Of a stretch of 27,218 nucleotides of DNA, positions 1,677 through 27,218 are shown one piece after another. Position 1 is the stretch's first letter, and the number at the start of each line of letters is the position of its first letter. The notes under the pieces are model-generated. The model did not search any database and had not been told where the DNA came from. It saw nothing but the letters and a program-made list of their open reading frames with translations. A program made the position numbers and the translations under genes. This DNA is from Candidatus Methanomethylophilaceae archaeon (GTDB lineage: Archaea > Thermoplasmatota > Thermoplasmata > Methanomassiliicoccales > Methanomethylophilaceae): NCBI GenBank assembly GCA_017475875.1, contig JAFVET010000107.1:1-27218 (forward strand), read 5' to 3'.

Positions 1677-4600
1677 ATGAAAGTAGTCTACCTGTCCATA
1701 CGCAACGTCGACGCACACAACATGGAGATCGCGGCCGACCGTCTGTCGGAGACCATCGGGACGAAGGTCGAACTCTACGGGGTGAACTCCGAGGAGGTCA
1801 ACGACGACGTCCTCGCCTATTCGGACCTCGTCAGGAACTGCAGGGACGCGGACTTCGTCTACGTCCGTATCATGGGCGACCCGTACCGCTTCCAGAGGTT
1901 CGACAGGTTCGTAGATTCTCTCAGGGAATCGGATTCGCTCGTCTACTTCCATGCCGGGACCCCGGAGGTCGCTTCCCTCGTCAGGGACCTCTTCCACGGA
2001 ACGGACGCCGATTACAAGACTCTGTGGAACTACTCCAACGCCAAAGGGCTGGACAACGACGTGTCGACCCTGTGGTACGCCGCGCACATGCTCGGTTTCA
2101 CTGATTCGCTCCCTCCCGAACCCGTACTCAGGAGACCGCACGGAATCTACCATCCCGACCGTCCCTCCGATGTCTCTGCCGAGGACTACATACGCTCCCT
2201 TCCGAAGACCAGGGTCAGGGCCGGATTGGTTTTCCCGGGATACACCCTGGTGTACCACGACACGGAGCACATCGACGCGGTGATAAGGGCCCTGGAAGCG
2301 CACGGCATGAGCGTCGTCCCGGTCTTCTTCTCCACTTTCTCCGACGAGGGGTACGAGGGGCTGAAGGGGATATTCGACCAATACTTCCGTCCGGAAGGCG
2401 TCCCGATCATAGACGTGGCAGTCTCGCTCGTGTCTTTCTCGCGTTCCACCACATACGGGCTCAACGGCCTCGAGGAAACCAACTACTTCCGCGACTGCCT
2501 GAACGTCCCGATAATCTACGGCTTGAACGTCGCGGGCGAGTACCACGACTTCGAGGACGACAGGATCGGCCTTTCCAAATCGGACATGGAGGCGAACGTC
2601 ACCTATCCAGAGCTTAACGGCGACATTATCACGGTACCCGTGTCCTACCGCCCCCGCGGAAAGGGGGACAGGACGTCCAGGCCCATACCCGACAGGATCG
2701 AGCACCTGTGCCGCGTGGCCTACGGATGGGGGAAGCTGAGGTCCACTCCCAAAAAAGACCGCAAGGTCGCGATACTCATGTGGCAGTCCACCGCCAACTC
2801 CGGGAACATAGGCGGGGCCGCAGGGCTCGACACGATGGAATCCATCGCCGACGAGCTGAAGAGGTTCGAAAAGGAGGGTTACACTGTCACAGACGTCCCC
2901 GAGAACGGCGCCGAACTCGTGAAGCAGATCCTGGACGGCGTCACGAACGACCTCGACAACCTCCCGCTGGAGTACATGAGGGAGCACGCCGCGGACACAA
3001 TGTCCAAGAAGGACTACGTAAGGCACTTCGAGTCCATCCCGGAATGGAACCAGGCGATGAAGCGCAAGGATTGGGGCGAACCGCCGGGAGAGCTTTGCGT
3101 CGACGGCGACGACATGATCATACCCGGGCTTGTCAAGGGCAACATCTACATCGGGTACCAGCCGCTTCGCGGGAGGGCGGAGAAGTTCGCCCAGAACATC
3201 CACGACCCGCTGCTGTTCCCCCAGCACCAGTACCTGGGCTTCTACAGATGGCTGAGGGACGTCTTCAAGGCGGACATGATAATCCACACCGGCACCCACG
3301 GCACCCTGGAATGGCTCCCGGGGAAGAACGTCGGGATGTCGAGAAAATGCGAACCGTGCGTCGTGCTCGACGGGATCCCCAACCTCTACCCCTACATCAT
3401 CGACGACCCCGGCGAGGCGATGCAGACGAAGAGGCGCTCGGAGAGCGTCGTCATAGGACACATGACCCCTTCGATGGCGCGCGCAGACAGCTACGACGAG
3501 CTCGACGAGGTGAACGTCCAGCTTCAGAACTACTTGAAGAACAAGAACGGGGCGTCCCCGGAGAGGATTTCGGAGATGGTCGCACAGATCTATGATGCGG
3601 CCAAGAGGAACGACATGCTGAACGACCTCGGGCTCGAGGGGGAGAAGGATCCGGGGGCCGAAGGGTTCGAACCTTACATCGTCGCCCTGCACGAATACAT
3701 AGAGGAGATGAAGGACGCTCTGATTCGCGCCAACCTCCACGTGCTCGGAAAGGTTCCTGAGGGGATACACTTCGACGAGATGGTATACTCCCTCACGAGG
3801 TTGGACAACGGGGACGTCGTCTCGTTCAGGGACGCGTTCGCCGCCAACCAGGGTTTCGACATGCGTTCCGCGGTGGACGACGTGTCCTCGATGTCAAGGG
3901 ACGAACTGAACTCGGAGGCGATCGACCGCATCGATTCGGAGCTCATGGACCTGATCGCATGGATGAGAGAGGACGGTTTCGACACCGGGCGCAGCATAAC
4001 CGAGGTCGAGAGGAGGTACGGCAGGGCGGACGATACCCTCAGGGAATCCATAAGGTACGTGTGCGAGAGCGTGGCGCCCAGGATCGAGAACATGGCGTAC
4101 GAGATGGACAACCTGTTCGGAGGGATCAACGGGGAGTTCGTGCCGCCGGGGCCTTCGGGTGCGCCCACCAGGGGGAACGCCGACATCCTCCCCACGGGGA
4201 GGAACATGTACTCCCTCGATCCATCGCTCGTCCCGTCGAAATCGTCCTGGGAAATAGGGAAGCGGATGGCGGACCAGATGATCCGGAGGTACGCCGACGA
4301 GCACGGCGGGTTCCCGAGGGAGGTCGGTTTCGTCATATGGGCCACCGACACCATGAAGACCGGCGGGGACGACGTGGCGTACATCCTGTGGCTCATGGGC
4401 GTGAAACCGGTGTGGAGCAGGACCGGGGGCCAGGTCCTCGGGCTCGAGGTCATCCCCCTGTCGGAGCTCGGGAGGCCCCGCGTGGACGTCACGGTGAACA
4501 TCACGGGACTGTTCAGGGACACCTTCCCGAACCTCATCGACCTCATCGACGACGCCGTCAAGATGGTGATGGACCTGGACGAGGACGACGAGGACAACGC

Positions 4601-5408
4601 CATCGCGGCCAACCTCAGGAAGGACATAGTCGAGGGGATAGCGAACGGGCTCACACCAGACGAGGCCCGCAGACGCAACTCCGTCCGTCTGTTCGGCGCC
4701 CCGCCCGGGGCGTACGGTGCGGGCGTGAACCATGCCGTGGCCTCCAGCACGTGGGAGACCGTGGAGGACCTGGCGAACGTCTACAGGGACTGGTGCTCCA
4801 ACGGATACGCGAAAGGCGAATACGGAACGAAGATGACCGAGGAGTTCTGCCGCAGGTTCTCGAAGGTCGCGGTCACCGTCAAGAACATCGCAGACAGGGA
4901 GATAGACATCCTTGACTGCGACGACTACTACGAGTTCCTGGGCGGGATGAACTCCTTCGTCCGCACGTACGGGCGGAAGGACTTCGTGACGTACATGGGC
5001 GACGACTCGGACCCGAAGAAGAGCAAGATCCGCTCCACTCAGGAGGAACTGCGCTTCACCGTCAGGAGCAAGGCGTTCAACCCCAAGTTCATAAACGGCC
5101 TGAAGGAACACGGATACCGCGGTGCGGCGGAGCTCGCCAACGTGGTCGAGTTCACGATGGCCTGGGACGCCACGTCCGGGATCGGGGAGGACTGGATGTA
5201 CGAGGGTCTCGCGGACAGGTACCTCTTCGACAAGGACACACAGGATTGGATGCGGGAGGTCAACCCCTATGCGATGATGAACATCATCAACCGCCTGCAG
5301 GAAGCGATCGAGAGGGGGCTCTGGGATGCCACGGACGAGTACAAAGATAAACTGAAGGACCTCTACATCGAGACCGAGGCGCACATAGAGGAGATCACGG
5401 ACCGCTGA
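1677..5408 (+). CDS. cobN: CobN/BchH/ChlH-family metal chelatase large subunit
   Basis: This 1243-aa protein is the size of CobN (about 1200-1300 aa). The family's large subunit binds the tetrapyrrole and catalyses ATP-driven insertion of Co2+ (CobN, corrin ring) or Mg2+ (BchH/ChlH). Diagnostic motifs are visible: GTHGTLEWLPGKNVGMS near residues 537-553, and PPGAYGAGVNHAVASSTWE near residue 1008, both highly conserved in CobN. The N-terminal region (MKVVYLSIRNVDAHN) matches archaeal CobN-like proteins. The start is set by a GGTGGGG site 7 nt upstream. The AAA+ and MIDAS partner subunits (ChlI/ChlD or CobS/CobT type) are not in this window, so they must lie elsewhere or be absent. The nearby importer for a metal chelate or cobamide is consistent with a corrinoid role, but the metal and ring cannot be decided from sequence. 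The 3' end overlaps the convergent hipA-like gene by 46 nt. Confidence 0.93.
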   Translation: MKVVYLSIRNVDAHNMEIAADRLSETIGTKVELYGVNSEEVNDDVLAYSDLVRNCRDADFVYVRIMGDPYRFQRFDRFVDSLRESDSLVYFHAGTPEVASLVRDLFHGTDADYKTLWNYSNAKGLDNDVSTLWYAAHMLGFTDSLPPEPVLRRPHGIYHPDRPSDVSAEDYIRSLPKTRVRAGLVFPGYTLVYHDTEHIDAVIRALEAHGMSVVPVFFSTFSDEGYEGLKGIFDQYFRPEGVPIIDVAVSLVSFSRSTTYGLNGLEETNYFRDCLNVPIIYGLNVAGEYHDFEDDRIGLSKSDMEANVTYPELNGDIITVPVSYRPRGKGDRTSRPIPDRIEHLCRVAYGWGKLRSTPKKDRKVAILMWQSTANSGNIGGAAGLDTMESIADELKRFEKEGYTVTDVPENGAELVKQILDGVTNDLDNLPLEYMREHAADTMSKKDYVRHFESIPEWNQAMKRKDWGEPPGELCVDGDDMIIPGLVKGNIYIGYQPLRGRAEKFAQNIHDPLLFPQHQYLGFYRWLRDVFKADMIIHTGTHGTLEWLPGKNVGMSRKCEPCVVLDGIPNLYPYIIDDPGEAMQTKRRSESVVIGHMTPSMARADSYDELDEVNVQLQNYLKNKNGASPERISEMVAQIYDAAKRNDMLNDLGLEGEKDPGAEGFEPYIVALHEYIEEMKDALIRANLHVLGKVPEGIHFDEMVYSLTRLDNGDVVSFRDAFAANQGFDMRSAVDDVSSMSRDELNSEAIDRIDSELMDLIAWMREDGFDTGRSITEVERRYGRADDTLRESIRYVCESVAPRIENMAYEMDNLFGGINGEFVPPGPSGAPTRGNADILPTGRNMYSLDPSLVPSKSSWEIGKRMADQMIRRYADEHGGFPREVGFVIWATDTMKTGGDDVAYILWLMGVKPVWSRTGGQVLGLEVIPLSELGRPRVDVTVNITGLFRDTFPNLIDLIDDAVKMVMDLDEDDEDNAIAANLRKDIVEGIANGLTPDEARRRNSVRLFGAPPGAYGAGVNHAVASSTWETVEDLANVYRDWCSNGYAKGEYGTKMTEEFCRRFSKVAVTVKNIADREIDILDCDDYYEFLGGMNSFVRTYGRKDFVTYMGDDSDPKKSKIRSTQEELRFTVRSKAFNPKFINGLKEHGYRGAAELANVVEFTMAWDATSGIGEDWMYEGLADRYLFDKDTQDWMREVNPYAMMNIINRLQEAIERGLWDATDEYKDKLKDLYIETEAHIEEITDR

Positions 5409-13491: not shown

Positions 13492-14655
13492 TCAGAGAAC
13501 GTTGAGGAACACCAGGAGGACCCCGGTGTTCAGCACGTCCAACACCGCACCGCCTATGACGGGGACGGTGAATCCTGCGACCGGTGCCGGTCCGAACTCC
13601 GACGTCACGGCCTCCACGTTGGCGACCGCGTTCGGGGTGGCCCCCATCCCGAAACCCATGGTCCCTGCGACCAGTGCTGCGGAGTCGTAACTCCGGCCGG
13701 TGGCCCTGAACACGGCGAAATAGCTGAACAACGCGAGGAACAAGGTCTGCAACGCCAGCACCACTATCATCACGGCCGCCAGGTCCGCTATCTGCCACAG
13801 CTTTATCGACATCAGCGCCAGCACGAGGAACATGCACAGGGAGACCCATCCGATGACGTCGATCTCCTTGAGCGGGACGTCCGTATGCCTGCGGTCGACC
13901 ACGTTGCGTACCACGATGGCCACGAGCATAGCACCGAGGTACGACGGGATGGTGACGCCGACGGATTCCACCGCCATGTTCACGACCGTGCCCGCACCGA
14001 TGCAGAGTATCAGGTAGAGGAGGGCGGTCAGGAACCTCTGGCCGTCCGACCTGAGCTCCGTCTCGACGCCTTCCGTCACGTACCCCTCCGAGGGATGGAG
14101 CGAGTGCCTCCTCACCAGGGACCTGGCCAACGGTCCCCCGATCACGCCCGCGATGGCGAGACCGAAGGTGGCGGACGCTATCGCCACCGTGTCGGCACCG
14201 TCGAGGCCGTATGTGTCCACAAGGAGATCTCCGTAGGCGGCCGCGGTTCCGTGCCCTCCCGAGAGTGACACCGACCCGAGGGCGAGACCGTACATCGGAT
14301 CCAATCCGAAGGATCCGGCATAAACCACACCTATGAGGTTCTGGGACACGACCAACACGAGCATCAGGGCGGCCATGACCAGGACCGTACGGCCACCGGA
14401 CCTCAGCATGGCGGCGGAAGCGGTGAAACCCACCGAGCAGAAGAAGACCCTCATGAAGACGTCCCTGAGGGTCTCGTCGAACGTGAACTACAGTACGTCG
14501 GCCGAATGCAGAAGGAGGGTGCAGAATGAGAAGAGCAGTCCACCGACGACAGCCGCCGGAATGCAGTACCTCCTGAGGGCGGCGGAACGCTTCACCAGGT
14601 ACGTCCCGAGTATGAGCACCAGGGCACCGACGGCCACGGTCTGGAACAGGTCCAA
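13492..14655 (-). CDS. gltS: GltS-like sodium/glutamate symporter with in-frame TAG (pyrrolysine candidate)
   Basis: The C-terminal 320 residues (from the Met at 14454) match GltS: LDPMYGLALGSVSLSGGHGT is the signature motif, repeated in inverted topology near ATPNAVANVEAV. The frame without readthrough lacks the first helices. Reading upstream in the same frame, a TAG (14488-14490) is followed further upstream by 55 sense codons beginning at a TTG (14653-14655): LDLFQTVAVGALVLILGTYL, then KRSAALRRYCIPAAVVGGLLF, which is the family's N-terminus with its IP(E/A)xVxGG motif. With TAG read as an amino acid, the protein is 387 aa, close to the 401 aa of E. coli GltS, with no gap or frameshift. 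GltS imports glutamate with Na+. A GGAG lies 10 nt before the TTG and a TATA box about 55 nt before. If UAG is not decoded, this is a nonsense-mutated gene. Confidence 0.85.
14488..14490 (-). other. In-frame TAG codon inside gltS
   Basis: On the minus strand the codons read GAC GTA CTG TAG TTC ACG TTC GAC, that is D-V-L-(UAG)-F-T-F-D. E. coli GltS reads W-E-V-N-F-D just before its conserved LRDPLM, aligning with LRDVFM here. The TAG falls in the loop before helix 2, where sequence varies. Confidence 0.8.
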
Positions 14656-14705
14656 GGTCAGCGTCTCCGTTCTACCACTCCCGTGTATGGGATATGGCGA
14701 ACGGG

Positions 14706-14713
14706 GTTATATC
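14706..14713 (-). promoter_or_regulatory. TATA box for gltS
   Basis: GATATAAC on the minus strand lies about 55 nt before the TTG start, predicting a leader of about 28 nt that contains the GGAG site. Confidence 0.4.
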
Positions 14714-19281: not shown

Positions 19282-21102
19282 TCAGGGATTCTTCCCCCTA
19301 TGCATAAGGAGCAGTGCCAGCACAGCAAGAACGACGATTACAATCACTATCACAAGAACGATTACAATCGGGAACCCGCCTCCCTCGGAAGCCGGCTCCA
19401 AAGCCGACCACTGGGCAGACATTTCTCCCGTGGGAGATGACGATGTTAGTGTGACACGGTCCCCTTGATGGTACATCTTTCCCTCATAGGTCCAACCGTC
19501 GAATGACATACCCTGACGTACGGGAACGGTCGAAGGAACGGTGAACGTCTCCGACGCGTTGCTCGATGACAATACGATATCGGAAGGCGCCCCGGTCCCC
19601 CCGTTGGCATTGAACGAGAGCTTGTAAGTGTACGTTTCGGCCGGGACGACTTCCCAGTTCGCTGTCAAGGTGACGGATGGCGACGAACTGGTCAAAGTGA
19701 TGGAACCGCCCTGGGCATACGTCCTGCCTCCATAGGCCCACCCCGAGAACGAACTGCCGTCCTTGACGGGTACGGTCGAAGGGATCTGGAACGTGTGGCT
19801 GCCCTCGATCGATACATACGTCATCGTCGACGGAGCGCCCGATCCGCCGTTGGGATCGAATGCAAGGGGGTAGGTGTATGATGCGGAAGGAACGTCTGTC
19901 CAACTGGCGGTCAGCGTAGCCGACGGTGACGAACTCGTCAACGTGATGGAACCTCCCGGATTGTACGTCCGTCCAGCGTGGGACCATCCCGCGAACGTGC
20001 TCCCGTCCTTGGTCGGGATGCCGACTGGTATCGTGAAGGTGTATTGCTGTGCCGTCACCGAAACGGATATGGGTGCGGGTGCACCGGATCCACCGTTCGC
20101 ATCGAATGACAGCGTGTACGTATACGATTCCGCGGGGTCAGCGGTCCACTGTGCGACCAGTTTCGTTGTAGGTGATGAACTCGTAAGGCTCAGTTCGTCC
20201 CCGGGTTGGTACGTCCTACCTCCGTAGGACCAGCCGGAGAACGAGTTCCCGGCCTTTGTGGGAACCGTGGCTGGAATCTGGAAGATCTGGCTAGTCTCTG
20301 TAGTCGTCACCGGTTCGACGTATACTGCACCGGTCCCGCCATCCAGATCGAAATCTACAGAATATGTGTAGGTCCGGGCCCACAGAGCGCTGAGGGTCGC
20401 TGAGGGATTGGATGAACCCAACGTGATCACATCGCCTGCGTGATAGGTGGAGCCCCCATACGACCATCCCGCAAAGGCATACCCGTTGCGGAACGGTTCG
20501 ATGCTGGAGACGACCATCTCGACCGACGACGAGACGCTGTGGACGGACTGTCTGGAAGGCGGCTGATTACCGCCGTTAGCATCGTACGTCAGGGAATACT
20601 CTGTGCTCTGAGAGGAGGGAGCCTCCACGTGCACCGTCGCATCGGTGATATGAACATCGAGCGTCGTCAACCCGGTTTCGTCCGACGGATCGTACATGAT
20701 CGCCTCGCTGGCGATGTCGCCCTCGAACAAAGCTCTGACATGAAGGTCCCCAGTCGCCGAAGGATCGATTCTGAACGAAAGCACCGCCAGAACACCGGTG
20801 TCTTCCACGTTGTAAGCGCCGTCGGCTTCCGACCAGACGACGAATTGGTTGGGTTCGGCGGAACCGATGTCGCCGGCCCTCGAACCCATGTACTCGAGGC
20901 CGGGATCGGCCTCGTAACCGAATCTCAGAACGAAATACCCCGGGTTCTCCACCAGGCGTACTTCGATGTCCACCGTGTCCCCCGGCGCCCCGGAGACGGA
21001 GCCGAACTCCGCCTCCAGGACGGGGGCGGCGCCCTCCGAGGAGGGCACCAGGAGGACCAGCAGCGTCAAGGCTGCTACGAAGGCCCCCCTGAGAAGTTTC
21101 AT
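19282..21102 (-). CDS. Membrane-anchored surface protein: cohesin-like domain plus five Listeria-Bacteroides repeats
   Basis: The 606-aa protein has a signal peptide (1-24, [20 protein letters not shown]), a cohesin-like beta domain (about 28-158), five related repeats of about 78-80 aa (about 168-570), and a C-terminal anchor ([20 protein letters not shown], then MHRGKNP). The cohesin call rests on [20 protein letters not shown], the [20 protein letters not shown] segment, and [18 protein letters not shown], which follow the order G-x-x-V-x-V-x-V, LxYDxxL, and G-x-L-x-x-L-x-F of cohesins. Each repeat carries DANGG near its start, FxGWxYGGRTY in the middle and TLTSSSPS at the end, the InlB B-repeat (Flg_new) pattern of surface adhesins. 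It overlaps the giant adhesin stop by 4 nt and should be co-transcribed. It probably presents the cohesin outward on a repeat stalk. Confidence 0.85.
19392..20601 (-). repeat. Five tandem Listeria-Bacteroides (InlB B-type) repeats
   Basis: Repeat starts can be seen at [47 protein letters not shown] and [12 protein letters not shown]. The last four are the most alike and share TYTY lead-ins and [14 protein letters not shown] ends, suggesting recent tandem duplication. Confidence 0.85.
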
Positions 21103-24100
21103 TCTCTCTTCCTCACGTAATAGTAGTACGCGGCTGCCACGACGACTATCAGCACGATCGCCACGACGACGATCCAGACCGGGAATCCTTCGGACTTCTC
21201 CGTCGATGGGTGGTAGTCGGCTGTCACTGCGAAGAGCGAGAAGTGGTCGGTGACGAAGACGACAGTACCGTCAGAGTATGTGAACGGCATCTCAGTGATG
21301 GTTCCGTCGTCAACGATGTAGAGGACATGGAGATCCTCGGTCGTCGCACCTTCCGGTATGGTGTAGTAGTATCTGATCTCGACCTTTCCGTTGAGATCGT
21401 GGATGGGCGTGGTTCCGTCAGCAGTGTCGATAGTGACTATCGCAGCGTCCCCGACGACCTTCCTCTGTGCCTCGGTCAACATGGACAAATCCCTGGTGAC
21501 CTGTACTACCAAGTTGTTCCTGGCCGCCTCAAGGGTGGTCATTGCTGACTTGTCTGGAACAAGCACGACGAAGCCGAAGTCGAGGTTGATCGTGAACCTG
21601 TCGTCCAGTTCCTCCAGGACTCCGGGTTCGACGGTCAGCCTGCCGTCGGAGGTCAGGGTGAGCGTCTCCGTCGCGGTGGCGCCGACATCTGAAAGCGCCC
21701 CCTTCAGCGAATCCGCCTGGGTCTTGATCTCCTCGAGCTTCTCCTCGGTCAGTTCGGTCGTGTTGACCTTGGTCTTGATCTCTGTCGTACCGCCGATGAC
21801 GGCGATATCGGTTGTAACCGACGAGTCCTTGCTGCTCGCGCTTCCGGTTACCGTGGCCTTTCCGTCGGCTATGACCGTACGGATGTTGACCTTGGTTCCG
21901 TCGGCGGAGACGGACTCCGACACGGTGGTCTCGGTCACCTTTCCGCCGGATACGGACACCGTGGTCACCTTGTTCGACGAGGAACCGTCGTCAGAGCTGG
22001 AGACGACGCTGGTGACTGTGTCCCTTCCGGTGGCTGTCTCTGTGACCGTCTGTTCGGTGCGGATCTCCGTCTTCACGGTCTTTCCGTCCTTGTCGGTGGC
22101 GGTCACGTTGGTGACTGTGGTCGACGAACCGTCAGCCTTGCTGACGGTACTGGTCTCTGTGGTGGTGATCGAACCGTCGGAACCGGTGGTCACGGCTGTC
22201 GTCTCGACGATTGCCGTTCCGTCGGCCTTCTGGGTCACGGTGGTGTGTGACTCGGTGTCGGCGAAGGCGCCGTCGGTCTGGGTGACCCTGGTCTCCGCCA
22301 CCGAGACGACCTTATTGCCGTACTCGGTGACCGTAACGGCGGATTCGGTCACGACGCCGGTGGGCGAGGTGACCTTGGTCTCCGTCTCCACCACGTCGGA
22401 TCCGTCGGCGGCGACGTAGGAGACGGTGGTGGTCTCCGTCTTCGTTCCGTCGGACGACGTGGTGGTACCGATAGTCACGGTCTCGACGGTGCCGTCGGGT
22501 TCGACGTTCACCGAGGTGACGTTTGTGGACTCCTCGGTGACGGTCCTTCCGAGACTGTCGGTCGTGGTGACCTTCGAGGTCTCGGTGACGGTTCCTTCGG
22601 GATCGACGACCGTGGTCTTCTCGACCTCGACCTTGGTCCCGTCGGATGAGACCGACTCGGAATCGGTTACCGTGGTGGCGGTTCCGTCGGAGGAGACGGT
22701 GGTTGTGCTTGTTGTCTCGGTGACCGTCGAGATTCCCTCCTTGGAGACCTCGGTGGTCTTCTCGGTGTCGACCATGCCGGTGTCCGTCTCGACGAGCACG
22801 GACTCGGTGACCTTGCTCGAACCGTCCGCGGACGATTCGGTAACGACGGTCGTGGTCTGCACGTTTCCGTCGGCGGTCTCCACAGTCACCGTCGTCTCGG
22901 TGGTCTCGAGGACGTTTCCGTTCCTGTCGGTGACCTCGGTGGTGTTGACCGTCTCGACCGTACCGTCGGGATTGACGGTCGTCTGCTCCTTCTCGGTGAC
23001 GGTCCCGGTGGGGCCGGTCGAGGAGGATTCGGTGGTCTCGGTGACGGTCCTGCTTCCGTCGGCGGCGGTCTCGGTCCTGGTCTCCTTGACGGTGTATCCG
23101 TCGGAGGTGACCTCGATGACCGTCTGCTCCCTGACGGAGGATCCGTCGGAGGACGTGGTCGAGGACTGCTCGACTGTCGTCTTGGTTCCGTCGGCGGACG
23201 TCGTGGTGTTGACGAATCCTTCGGTCTTCTCGGTGGTGACGTTTCCGTCCTTGTCGGTGACTGTGACGGTCGTCTCGGTCACCTTGTTGCCGTCCTTGTC
23301 GGTGGTCTCCTTGGACTGTTCGGTCCTCGAGGATCCGTCCGAGGAGGTGGTCGTGACGGTGGACTCCCTCACATCGTTGCCGAGGGCGTCGGTGGACTCC
23401 TTCTCGGTTACGGTGGTCTCTGTTACCGTGGTGGCGCCGTTGGGCGCGGTGGTCTCGGTTACCGTGGTGGTGGTAGTTCCGTCCTCGCCGGTGGTAGTGG
23501 TGGTGACCGTCTTGACGGTCGATCCGTCGTCGTTCTCCGAGACGGAATCGGTCTTCTCGACGACGTTGCCGTCGGAATCCACAGTGACCGTGGTCATGGA
23601 CTCGGTGACGGTCTTGTTGCCGTCCTTGTCCGTGGTCTCGACCTTGGTTTCCGTGGTGATCGTTCCGTCGGGGTTGACGGTGGTGGTCTCCCCGGTCTTC
23701 GAGGTTGTTCCGTCGGATCCGGTGGTCGTGGACTCCTTCTCGGTGACGGCGGTTCCGTCGGGGTTGACGGTGGTCGTGGATGTCGACTCGGTCTTCGAGG
23801 TGGTTCCGTCGGGGTTGACGGTCTCCTTCTCGGAGGTCGTGGTCACGTTTCCGTCCTTGTCGACCGTGGTGGTCTCCTCGGTCTTGACGACGGTTCCGTC
23901 GGAGGATGTCGTCTTGGACTCGGTCTGAGCCACCGTGGATCCGTCCGTTCCGGTGGTGACGGTGGTCGTGGTCTCCGTCTCCGTTACCGTCCTACCGGCG
24001 CGGTCCTTCTCGGTCTCCTTGGTCTCGGTAACCGAGTTGCCGTCCTTGTCGGTCACGGTCGTGACGGATGTCTCATTGGAGCTTCCGTCCTTGTCCGCGG

Positions 24101-26048
24101 TCTTGGACGATCCGGTCTCCACGGTTTCGACGACGTTGCCGTCCTTGTCCTTGGTCACCGTCTCGGTGGTGGTGACCGTGTCGCCGTTCTCGGACACGAC
24201 GGTTGTCGACTCCCTGTCGACGGTGCTGCCGTCGGGGTTGGTCGTGGAGGTGGAGATGTTCTGCACCTGGTTGCCCTCGTCGTCCTCGGACACGGTCGTG
24301 GTGGACTCGGTCTCGGTGACGTTGCCGTCCTTGTCCGTGGTCTTGGTCTGGGTCTCGGTCACGGTCGTACCGTCGGGCGAGACCGTGGTGGTCGAGGTCT
24401 TCTCCTCGGTGGTTCCGTCGGAGGCCTTGGTCTCGGAGGAGGTCTCCTTCGTGACCGTTCCGTCGGGTTCCACTTCGGTGGTCTCGGTCTTCTTGGTCTC
24501 GGTCGTGACGGTGTTGCCGTCCTTGTCGGTCGTGGTGACCTTCTCCTCGGTGGTGACGTTACCGTCCTTGTCGGTGGTCTGCGTCAACTCCTTGGTCTCG
24601 GTGGATCCGTCGGATCCGGTCGTGACGGACGTGGTCTCCTTGACCTCGTTGCCGTCGGAGTCGGTTGTGACCGAGGTGGTCTCGGTGGTTTCGGTGGTGA
24701 CCTTGTTGCCGCCCTTGTCGGTGGTCTCGGTCTTCGTCTCCTTGACCTCGTTGCCGTCCTTGTCGGTGGTAGTGGTGGTCTCGGTGACGGTCACGGTTCC
24801 GTCCGCGGATGTCGCCTTGACGGTCTCCTCGGTGATGGTGTTGCCTTCGGTGTCCGTAGTCTCGGTCTTGGTGGACTCCTTGACCGATCCGTCGGATCCG
24901 GTGGTGGTCGACTCGGTCTCCTTGACCTTGTTCCCTTCGGAATCGACGGTCTCGGTGGTGGTCGACTCGGTGGTGGACGTGACGTTGCCGCTCTCGTCCT
25001 TCTCCGTGACGGTCGACTCGGTGACGGAGTTACCGTCCTTGTCGGTCACGGTCTTGGAGGTCTCCTCGGTCGAGGAACCGTCGGTGTTGGTCGTGGACTT
25101 GTTCGTCTCGGTGGAGCTGTTGCCCTCGTCGTCGGTGACGGTCTTGGTCTCCTCGGTGGTGACGGATCCGTCGTCGTTGACGTCGGTCTTCTTCTCCTCC
25201 TCGACCACGGGTTCGGCGACCTTGGTCCAAGATGCCGTGACGGTCATGGCGCGGGTCACCTCGGCGGTTGGGTCTACGGACCATCCTGCGAAGGTGTATC
25301 CGGACCTGACGGGGGTCGGGAGGTCTCCGATGGCGTTTCCGGACTGCACCTGGATGCTGCCGGGCGACACCATCCCACCGTTTGCGTCGAGGGTCACCGT
25401 GTAGACGGTTACGAACGTCGCGGTGTAGGTGACGTCTGCAGTCACGGGTGCGATCGCGGGCGACCAGCCGGCGAAGGTGTAGGACACTCCGGGGATGCCG
25501 AGCCTGGACGGGGTACCGTCGTAGGCGGGCGTCGCTCCCTGCTCGTAGACCTGCGTCTTGAGCACGGTGCCGTCGTAGTCGGCCCATGTCACAGTGTACG
25601 TGGGTCCGGTGACCGGCGTGGAGGTGAAGGTCGCGGTGTAGTCTGCGTCGGCGGTGGCCGTGACGACCTCTGGCGACCATCCTGCGAAGGTGTAGGTGAA
25701 CCTTCCGTCCATGGCCTTGGTCGGGGTCTGTCCGGAGTAGACCGGCGTGGCGCCTTCCGCCCAGGATCCGGTGGACAGGAGCTTTCCGTCTCCGTCGAAC
25801 CACCTGACCGTGAAGGTCTTGGAGATCGGTCCGACCGGCGTGGCGGTGAAGGTCGCGGTGTAGGTGGCATCGGATGTTAGCACCGTTATCGCGGGCGTCC
25901 ATCCGGCGAACTCGTAGCTGTACATGGCGTCGGAGTCCCTGGCGGGGGTGAGACCCGTGTACATCGGGGTCGAGCCCTCGTTCCACCTCTCGGTGGACAG
26001 GACGGTTCCGTCGTAGTTCATCCAGGTGACCGTGAACTTGTTGGTCAC
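21099..26048 (-). CDS. Giant Thr/Asp/Gly-repeat adhesin-like protein, C-terminal part after an in-frame TAA
   Basis: This frame of 1649 aa has no signal peptide and begins at a GTG inside a run of InlB-type repeats, so it is the downstream part of an interrupted gene, not a complete one. In order it has three to four B-type repeats (YTATF and FAGW motifs, about residues 1-275), a region of roughly 1100 residues of short T/E/D/G-rich repeats (DKDGN, SPDGT, NPDGT, SSDGT units every 16-19 aa), a globular C-domain ([20 protein letters not shown] to DHFSLFAV), a transmembrane helix ([19 protein letters not shown]) and a basic RKRE end. It resembles archaeal adhesin-like proteins that extend from the membrane through the cell surface. 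The DxDGN units recall Ca-binding turns, but calcium binding is untested. Its TGA overlaps the start of the cohesin-like gene. Confidence 0.72.
21840..25200 (-). repeat. Long array of degenerate 16-19-aa Thr/Asp/Gly repeats
   Basis: About 1100 codons of short units with a turn (DKDGN, NPDGT, SSDGT, SADGT) followed by an alternating strand such as TVTETTTTT. The units are degenerate in sequence but regular in spacing, as expected for a beta-hairpin or beta-solenoid stalk. At the DNA level the motif GGTGGTCTCGGTGACGG recurs with many variants, so recombination-driven length change is likely. Confidence 0.8.
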
Positions 26049-26258
26049 GGGAACGATCGGCGAGGAATATTACGTGGCCGTGTACTCAGCATCGGCTGTG
26101 GCCGCGACGATCTCCGGGGTCCATGCCCTGAACTCGTAGATGTAGCGTCCGTCGGACTCCCTGACGGGGTTGGTTCCGTACCTGGGCGTCTCCCCGTCGG
26201 CGACGCGGTCGGTGCGGAGCACGGTTCCGTCCCAGTCCTTCCAGGTTATGGTGTGGTA
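25225..26258 (-). repeat. InlB-type repeats in the giant adhesin
   Basis: Four units of about 62-70 aa share YTVTWxDYDGTVL at the start, GxTPxYxGxTP in the middle, FAGWSP and DATYTATF at the end. A fifth variant ([10 protein letters not shown] to TVTASW) closes the block before the T-rich region. The TAA sits at the end of the first unit. Confidence 0.8.
26070..26072 (-). other. Single in-frame TAA interrupting the giant repeat gene
   Basis: The sense codons ACG GCC ACG TAA TAT TCC read T-A-T-stop-Y-S, where sibling repeats read T-A-T-F-T-(A/S). The frame is otherwise intact on both sides. TAA is not the pyrrolysine codon. Confidence 0.85.
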
Positions 26259-27218
26259 TCCGTCGTCGGTCACGATCGCGTAGAGCGAGAAGTGGTCGGT
26301 GACAAACACGACGTCCCCTCCGTCGACGGTGAACGGCATCTCTACGATGCCTCCGTCCTCGGCGATGTAGAGGACGCGGATGGTGGAAGCATCGAACGCG
26401 GCGGTGCTGTAGTGGTAGATGACGGTTACGATACCGTTCATCTCGTGGATCGCACCTCCGGCGGCGGTGATGTCGACGGTGACGATGGCACCGGTTCCGA
26501 CGACCGCCCTCTGGGCGTCCGTGAGCTTGGCGAGGTCCCTCGCGACGTCGAAGGTCAGGGTGTTGCCCAGGGATTCGAGGTATGCGAGAACGTCCTCGTC
26601 GGGCACGAGCACGACGAAACCGAAGTCGAGGTTGAGGGTGAACCTCTCGCTCAACTCCCTGATCACGTCGGGGTCGATCTCGACTGTTCCGTCGGTGACG
26701 ATGGTCACGGTCTGCTCCGGTTCGGTACCGGTGGCGTCCGCGAGCGCCTCCGTCTGGGAGATTATCTCGTCGAGGACGCTCTGGTCGACCTTGTCCGTAT
26801 TGACGACGGTCTCGGTCTCGACGGTTCCGTCAGGTCCGGTGGTGAGCTCGGTCTTGACGCTCTCGTCCTCGTTCGAAGCGCTTCCGGTGGCGGTGGTTCC
26901 GTCTCCGGTTTCCTCGGTCTCGGTGGTGACGGCGGTCTTGGTGCCGTCCTCCTTGGTGATCTCGACGGTCGTCTCGGTAGTGACGTTTCCGTCGGAGTCC
27001 GCCTTGACGGTCTCCTCGGTCTTCACGACGCTTCCGTCGGGGTTGGTCGTGGTGGATTCGGTCTCGACGACAGGGTTTCCTTCCGAGTCGGTGGACTCGG
27101 TGGTCTTGGAGTCGGTGACCTTCTTGTCGCCGTCGGGGCCTGTCTCCTCGACGTGGGTCTCGGTGACCTTGTTGCCGTCCTCGTCGGTGGTCTGGGTCTC
27201 CACTGTATCGATCACCGT
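26070..27218 (-). CDS. Giant adhesin-like protein, upstream part (5' end off the window, ends at TAA)
   Basis: The frame is open to the right edge; the missing N-terminus should carry the signal peptide. Visible parts are T/E/D/G-rich repeats (about 27218-26890), a globular domain (about 26870-26260) that duplicates the C-domain of the downstream part (both carry [15 protein letters not shown] or [15 protein letters not shown] and VFVTDHFSL), and one B-type repeat (YHTITWKDWDGTVLRT to AEYTAT). It then stops at TAA (26070-26072). Translation of the next 21 nt (YSSPIVP) continues in frame into the next gene's VTNKFTVTW, completing the repeat junction where other copies have F. The two halves are therefore one ancestral gene of more than 2000 codons. 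Confidence 0.75.
   Translation of the reverse strand, partial: TVIDTVETQTTDEDGNKVTETHVEETGPDGDKKVTDSKTTESTDSEGNPVVETESTTTNPDGSVVKTEETVKADSDGNVTTETTVEITKEDGTKTAVTTETEETGDGTTATGSASNEDESVKTELTTGPDGTVETETVVNTDKVDQSVLDEIISQTEALADATGTEPEQTVTIVTDGTVEIDPDVIRELSERFTLNLDFGFVVLVPDEDVLAYLESLGNTLTFDVARDLAKLTDAQRAVVGTGAIVTVDITAAGGAIHEMNGIVTVIYHYSTAAFDASTIRVLYIAEDGGIVEMPFTVDGGDVVFVTDHFSLYAIVTDDGYHTITWKDWDGTVLRTDRVADGETPRYGTNPVRESDGRYIYEFRAWTPEIVAATADAEYTAT

Follow-up and report, generated by a model that had tools for sequence, protein, structure and literature searches.

The gene for a sodium/glutamate symporter (gltS) in a Candidatus Methanomethylophilaceae archaeon raises the question of whether an in-frame TAG codon near its 5' end is read as an amino acid or marks a gene that has been broken. 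The gene lies on the minus strand of a contig of 27,218 nucleotides that was analysed in its entirety (C201, hereafter the window), which belongs to a 76% complete draft genome (1.54 Mb, 281 contigs). It spans positions 13492..14655 and comprises 387 codons from TTG to TGA, including one TAG as codon 56 at 14488..14490 (CTA on the plus strand), preceded by 55 codons and followed by 331. If the TAG is counted as a residue, a single frame of 387 residues runs from 14655 down to 13495 without any frameshift and is closed by TGA. Both pieces independently match the Glt_symporter family (PF03616), the upstream codons at profile positions 3-54 (E 4.8e-11) and the downstream ORF at positions 70-368 (E 1.2e-88), in the order of the family and far above chance, and reading through the TAG yields one single match over positions 4-368 (E 1.3e-109). 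Moreover, the NCBIfam gltS cut-off of 310.75 bits is passed only by the read-through product (343 bits), the separate pieces reaching 40 and 279 bits. The earlier note on this DNA had claimed that a TAG interrupts gltS and that the 55 codons upstream encode the GltS N-terminus in the same frame, and both claims are borne out. By its full-length family match, obtained on reading through the TAG, GltS is an ESS-family glutamate symporter, for which sodium-coupled glutamate transport is predicted. Codon use is coding-like on both sides of the TAG, with per-codon scores of 0.28 before and 0.37 after it, the reference values for aligned genes being 0.41 at the median and 0.12 at the 5% point.

Judged by its gene content, the genome is a pyrrolysine-decoding one, containing pylT with the anticodon CUA, pylS, pylD, likely pylB and pylC, and an mttB gene with one in-frame TAG that aligns with a TAG in the relative G007. 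The tRNA-Pyl gene is located at C204:135-206, and the frame 3' of it on the same strand was read by eye as the beginning of pylS, pylT being likewise directly upstream of pylS in G007. Contig C84 starts within pylS, which is thus split by the contig end; the 3' part of pylS and pylD on this contig exceed their family cut-offs, and the ORFs between them, from which pylB and pylC were read, likely represent these two genes. A genome devoid of pyl genes, which the earlier note had named as an outcome that would speak against a sense reading, is therefore not what its proposed search for pylT, pylS and pylBCD returned. Downstream of pylD, C84 also carries a putative RamA-like ORF.

Comparison with relatives, also proposed earlier, reveals a sense codon at the site. 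Among 18 homologous gltS loci examined in the family, all 17 that cover the position of residue 56 encode Glu (12 GAG, 5 GAA), and all nine same-genus loci have GAG, the ancestral codon, so that one G-to-T change would have been enough to create the TAG. A second set of 15 named loci, retrieved by alignment search and overlapping the first in part, consists of 12 loci titled as archaea or Methanomassiliicoccaceae and three titled as bacteria; 14 of them cover the site, 13 with Glu and one with Phe. L014, a match of 49 residues, was excluded from the site count, L165 and L188 miss the site, and L012 and L180 are truncated short of the start. The TAG occurs in none of the relatives that cover the site, either among the 17 family loci or among the 14 named ones. 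A contig search with the GltS protein alone recovered no relative, and a search with the 55-residue piece upstream of the TAG returned no match. In a broader alignment, comprising the best 120 of 1873 database hits minus the ORF of the window itself, the residue-56 column holds Glu in 99 of the 119 other proteins, followed by Thr (6), Gly (5), Tyr (5), Asp (2), Ile (1), and Gln (1). These alignments show that the position of the UAG varies across the wider family. No solved structure matched GltS by sequence. In an AlphaFold2 model calculated with lysine in place of pyrrolysine (mean pLDDT 87.7), residue 56 lies in a loop between the helices formed by residues 34-51 and 62-78, that is, after the second long helix and not in the loop before helix 2, where the earlier note had placed it.

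Taken together, these observations are best explained if the UAG at 14488 is a sense codon read as pyrrolysine that arose by near-neutral drift, with a full-length symporter still possible, a reading drawn from sequence to which we assign a probability of about 0.6. In the sequence of events that we envisage, GAG would have mutated to TAG in the gltS gene of this lineage, PylS would charge tRNA-Pyl(CUA), and this tRNA would insert pyrrolysine at residue 56, so that full-length GltS could still be produced by read-through of the UAG. The exchange of Glu for pyrrolysine was probably close to neutral because residue 56 is situated in a variable loop between membrane helices. Initiation would take place at the TTG codon after the loss of an older start codon.

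The drift reading also draws on the rest of the genome, for which stop codons were surveyed in 47 readable contigs totalling 319 kb, the window included, after 14 of 61 contigs (60 from the draft plus the window) had been dropped because they consist entirely of N. Alignments to the gene set of G007 contain 15 internal stops, comprising 9 TAG, 4 TAA, and 2 TGA. After inspection, a TAG is supported on both sides in mttB, gltS, gpmA, a thiI-like gene, and a cobN gene, to which a codon-use scan and a G007 match spanning the TAG add an arsC/phosphatase-like gene, giving a total of six genes with a mid-gene TAG in 319 kb, five of them besides mttB. Family searches name the gpmA, thiI-like, cobN, and arsC/phosphatase-like genes, whose counterparts in G007 carry TAT, CAG, CTG, and GAG, respectively, at the position of the TAG, three of the four being one base away from it. 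When the separate pieces were compared with Pfam, the thiI-like and cobN genes were matched in both halves, gpmA only in the larger half, and the arsC-like gene in neither. The control with the other stops is not entirely clean: a mid-gene TAA (window 26070, in a repeat protein) and a mid-gene TGA (L032:3580, 28% identity) likewise have coding-like sequence on either side; consequently, decay or base errors also occur in this sample. Mid-gene TAG is favoured over TAA and TGA, although the counts are low and certain frames of the draft are broken or mis-read.

Several TAG rows were dropped from the count, namely those that immediately precede a gene start (L049:1101, L143:5167, L042:245, L146:1458, and L152:4734), those antisense to or beside a better-supported gene on the other strand (L028:5102, L028:4793, L148:1267, L023:4785, and L156:3514), those with flanks that are not coding-like (L033:178, L150:6874, L140:3631, and L021:710), and one without a homologue (L038:1802). 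Antisense-looking rows of L052 and L042, as well as window 15495, L143:1942, and L143:1729, are also outside the count. With coding-like sequence around it but no homologue in G007, L038:1802 may be an additional mid-gene TAG.

Among 295 non-edge ORFs scoring above 20, 11 end at TAG; three of these are read-through sites, which leaves no more than 8 of 292 with TAG as terminator, and several of the remaining eight appear over-extended. Because few genes of this genome terminate at TAG, selection against TAG codons within genes would be weak, and several such codons could have arisen; their presence in unrelated genes fits drift. The earlier proposal that UAG is sense in a transporter thus stands in part, with the pyl genes, the other mid-gene TAGs, and the Glu codons of the relatives in its favour, whereas a special role for the residue finds no support. 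One of the eight ORFs ending at TAG, a metal-type ABC permease recognized by eye, stops at window 15356 and is followed two codons further on by a TGA that would serve as a backup stop.

The 5' region of gltS complicates this picture. In all 16 evaluable relatives, translation starts five codons upstream of the TTG, at ATG (5) or GTG (11), and the same position holds ATG, GTG or, once, TTG in all 13 evaluable named loci; by comparison with the 16 relatives, this ancestral start has been lost here and now reads ACG (14668..14670, minus strand), a change that the earlier note does not mention. The likely present start is the TTG at 14653..14655, which is the first ATG, GTG, or TTG in the frame. 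A candidate ribosome-binding site, GGAG, is located nine bases upstream of it (14665..14668, minus strand), and a candidate archaeal TATA box, ATATAA, lies at 14707..14712 on the same strand, both recognized by eye. On this visual reading, the TTG with its GGAG is a usable start. Nevertheless, with the conserved start codon lost too, gltS may no longer work.

Early decay would typically show itself in such a pair of changes, a lost start and a new TAG, and gltS may have been inactivated recently, the change of the start to ACG, the TAG, or both having arisen once the gene had become dispensable; the remainder would still look intact because little time has passed. The accessory nature of the gene, present in 18 of 102 family genomes including this one, is in line with such a history, as are the other broken-looking frames of the sample (the TAA at window 26070 and the TGA at L032:3580). 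However, 387 codons have been kept without a frameshift, codon use remains coding-like on either side of the TAG, a TTG start persists, and UAG can be decoded in this genome. Nor have changes accumulated to excess at conserved sites elsewhere in the protein: only 2 of 95 columns that are 95% conserved deviate, which ranks this sequence 51 of 75. Relatives with a sense codon combined with a decaying downstream region had been named beforehand as evidence against a sense UAG; the sense codon is indeed there, as Glu, but the decay is not. We regard recent inactivation as rather unlikely. An error of the assembly, affecting the TAG or both the TAG and the ACG, appears more improbable still: the draft is fragmented into 281 contigs and neither change is shared by any relative, but mid-gene TAG codons recur in other genes and outnumber mid-gene TAA and TGA, and the product of 320 amino acids is listed as a four-member cluster, which may hint at more than one database copy.

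The least probable explanation, to which we give hardly any weight, is a regulated switch in which full-length GltS would be made only when pyrrolysine is plentiful, with the aid of a downstream RNA hairpin. Pyrrolysine genes are present, and a local hairpin of 10 bp (14444..14475, minus strand) starts 12 bases after the TAG, although its statistics are weak (z -1.95; 6 of 200 shuffles fold equally well). Over 103 bases the hairpin is unremarkable (z -0.22) and it is not seen in relatives, and a UAG-specific RNA signal was rejected for these reasons. No relative has the TAG in gltS, and similar TAGs are found in unrelated genes; the suggestion that GltS levels are coupled to the supply of pyrrolysine thus receives no support.

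Read as a product of drift, the gltS codon can be compared with several known systems. The residue encoded by UAG in the methylamine methyltransferases MtmB, MtbB, and MttB is catalytic. Like these enzymes, gltS has a single in-frame UAG that would be read by the same tRNA, but their UAG is conserved, whereas that of gltS is private to this genome and located in a variable loop. A closer parallel may be the tRNA-His guanylyltransferase of Methanosarcina, for which Heinemann et al. in 2009 reportedly attributed pyrrolysine to neutral evolution: in both cases a stray UAG in a gene outside methylamine metabolism is explained by drift, although the Methanosarcina enzyme is said to have been studied experimentally and the gltS codon is known here from sequence alone. 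An archaeal genetic code in which all TAG codons specify pyrrolysine is also said to have been reported in 2025. In Candidatus Methanomethylophilus alvus, 16 proteins with in-frame UAG are predicted besides the methyltransferases, including one transporter family protein, TAG accounts for 1.6% of stops, and in-frame amber codons are argued to persist as stable mutations when they are constantly suppressed (Borrel et al. 2014, PMC4153887). The two organisms are alike as pyrrolysine-decoding Methanomassiliicoccales with UAG in non-methylamine genes, a transporter gene among them, that have UAG-free homologues elsewhere, and with TAG stops that are rare in both (1.6% in the former, no more than 8 of 292 ORFs in the latter); the present case differs in concerning gltS, in the additional loss of the conserved start, and in coming from an incomplete draft genome (PMC4153887). 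The gltS UAG fits the pattern proposed there in 2014 (PMC4153887). Passages in two further papers treat pyrrolysine in the context of methylamine use (PMC10804542; PMC13044021), and a literature search combining glutamate symporter and pyrrolysine, with most subscription papers outside its scope, found no paper.

By itself, gltS would be a further example of the pattern proposed in 2014, and an ambiguous one given the loss of its start codon. A sharper test is offered by gpmA, since it is a core gene found only once here and is thus harder to dismiss as decay. Its in-frame TAG lies at L139:730 (G000:C41), where G007 has Tyr (TAT); it is the only match listed that has a TAG inside. Of 31 genomes in the genus, 26 possess the family, the present genome among them, as do all 17 that are near-complete, and the sole hit here to the alternative phosphoglycerate mutase family is far under the cut-off. 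A second gpmA or gltS may lie elsewhere in the genome, given its 76% completeness. A more far-reaching possibility, which we hold tentatively and at somewhat below even odds, is that UAG has become an ordinary sense codon throughout the proteome of this lineage, including the only gpmA found, that the cell depends on pyrrolysine for growth even in the absence of methylamines, and that gltS belongs to a set of perhaps a few dozen pyrrolysine proteins, six genes with a mid-gene TAG having been seen in 319 kb of the 1.54 Mb draft. If UAG were sense genome-wide, standard annotation would cut proteins short, among them a transporter and a core enzyme of glycolysis, and pyrrolysine might be required beyond methylamine use.

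Among minor observations, two related genomes are listed with phosphoglycerate mutase paralogues that have one in-frame TGA each, at G011:C27:43586-44305 and G012:C31:38028-38735. At least two cobN-type genes are present, one with the in-frame TAG (L027:2540) and one without a TAG (window 1677-5408). On the minus strand of window 21099-27218, the TAA at 26070 stands between a 382-codon frame reaching the contig end and an ORF of 1649 amino acids that continues this frame; the two align to a single long protein of G007 and may represent one large interrupted repeat protein.
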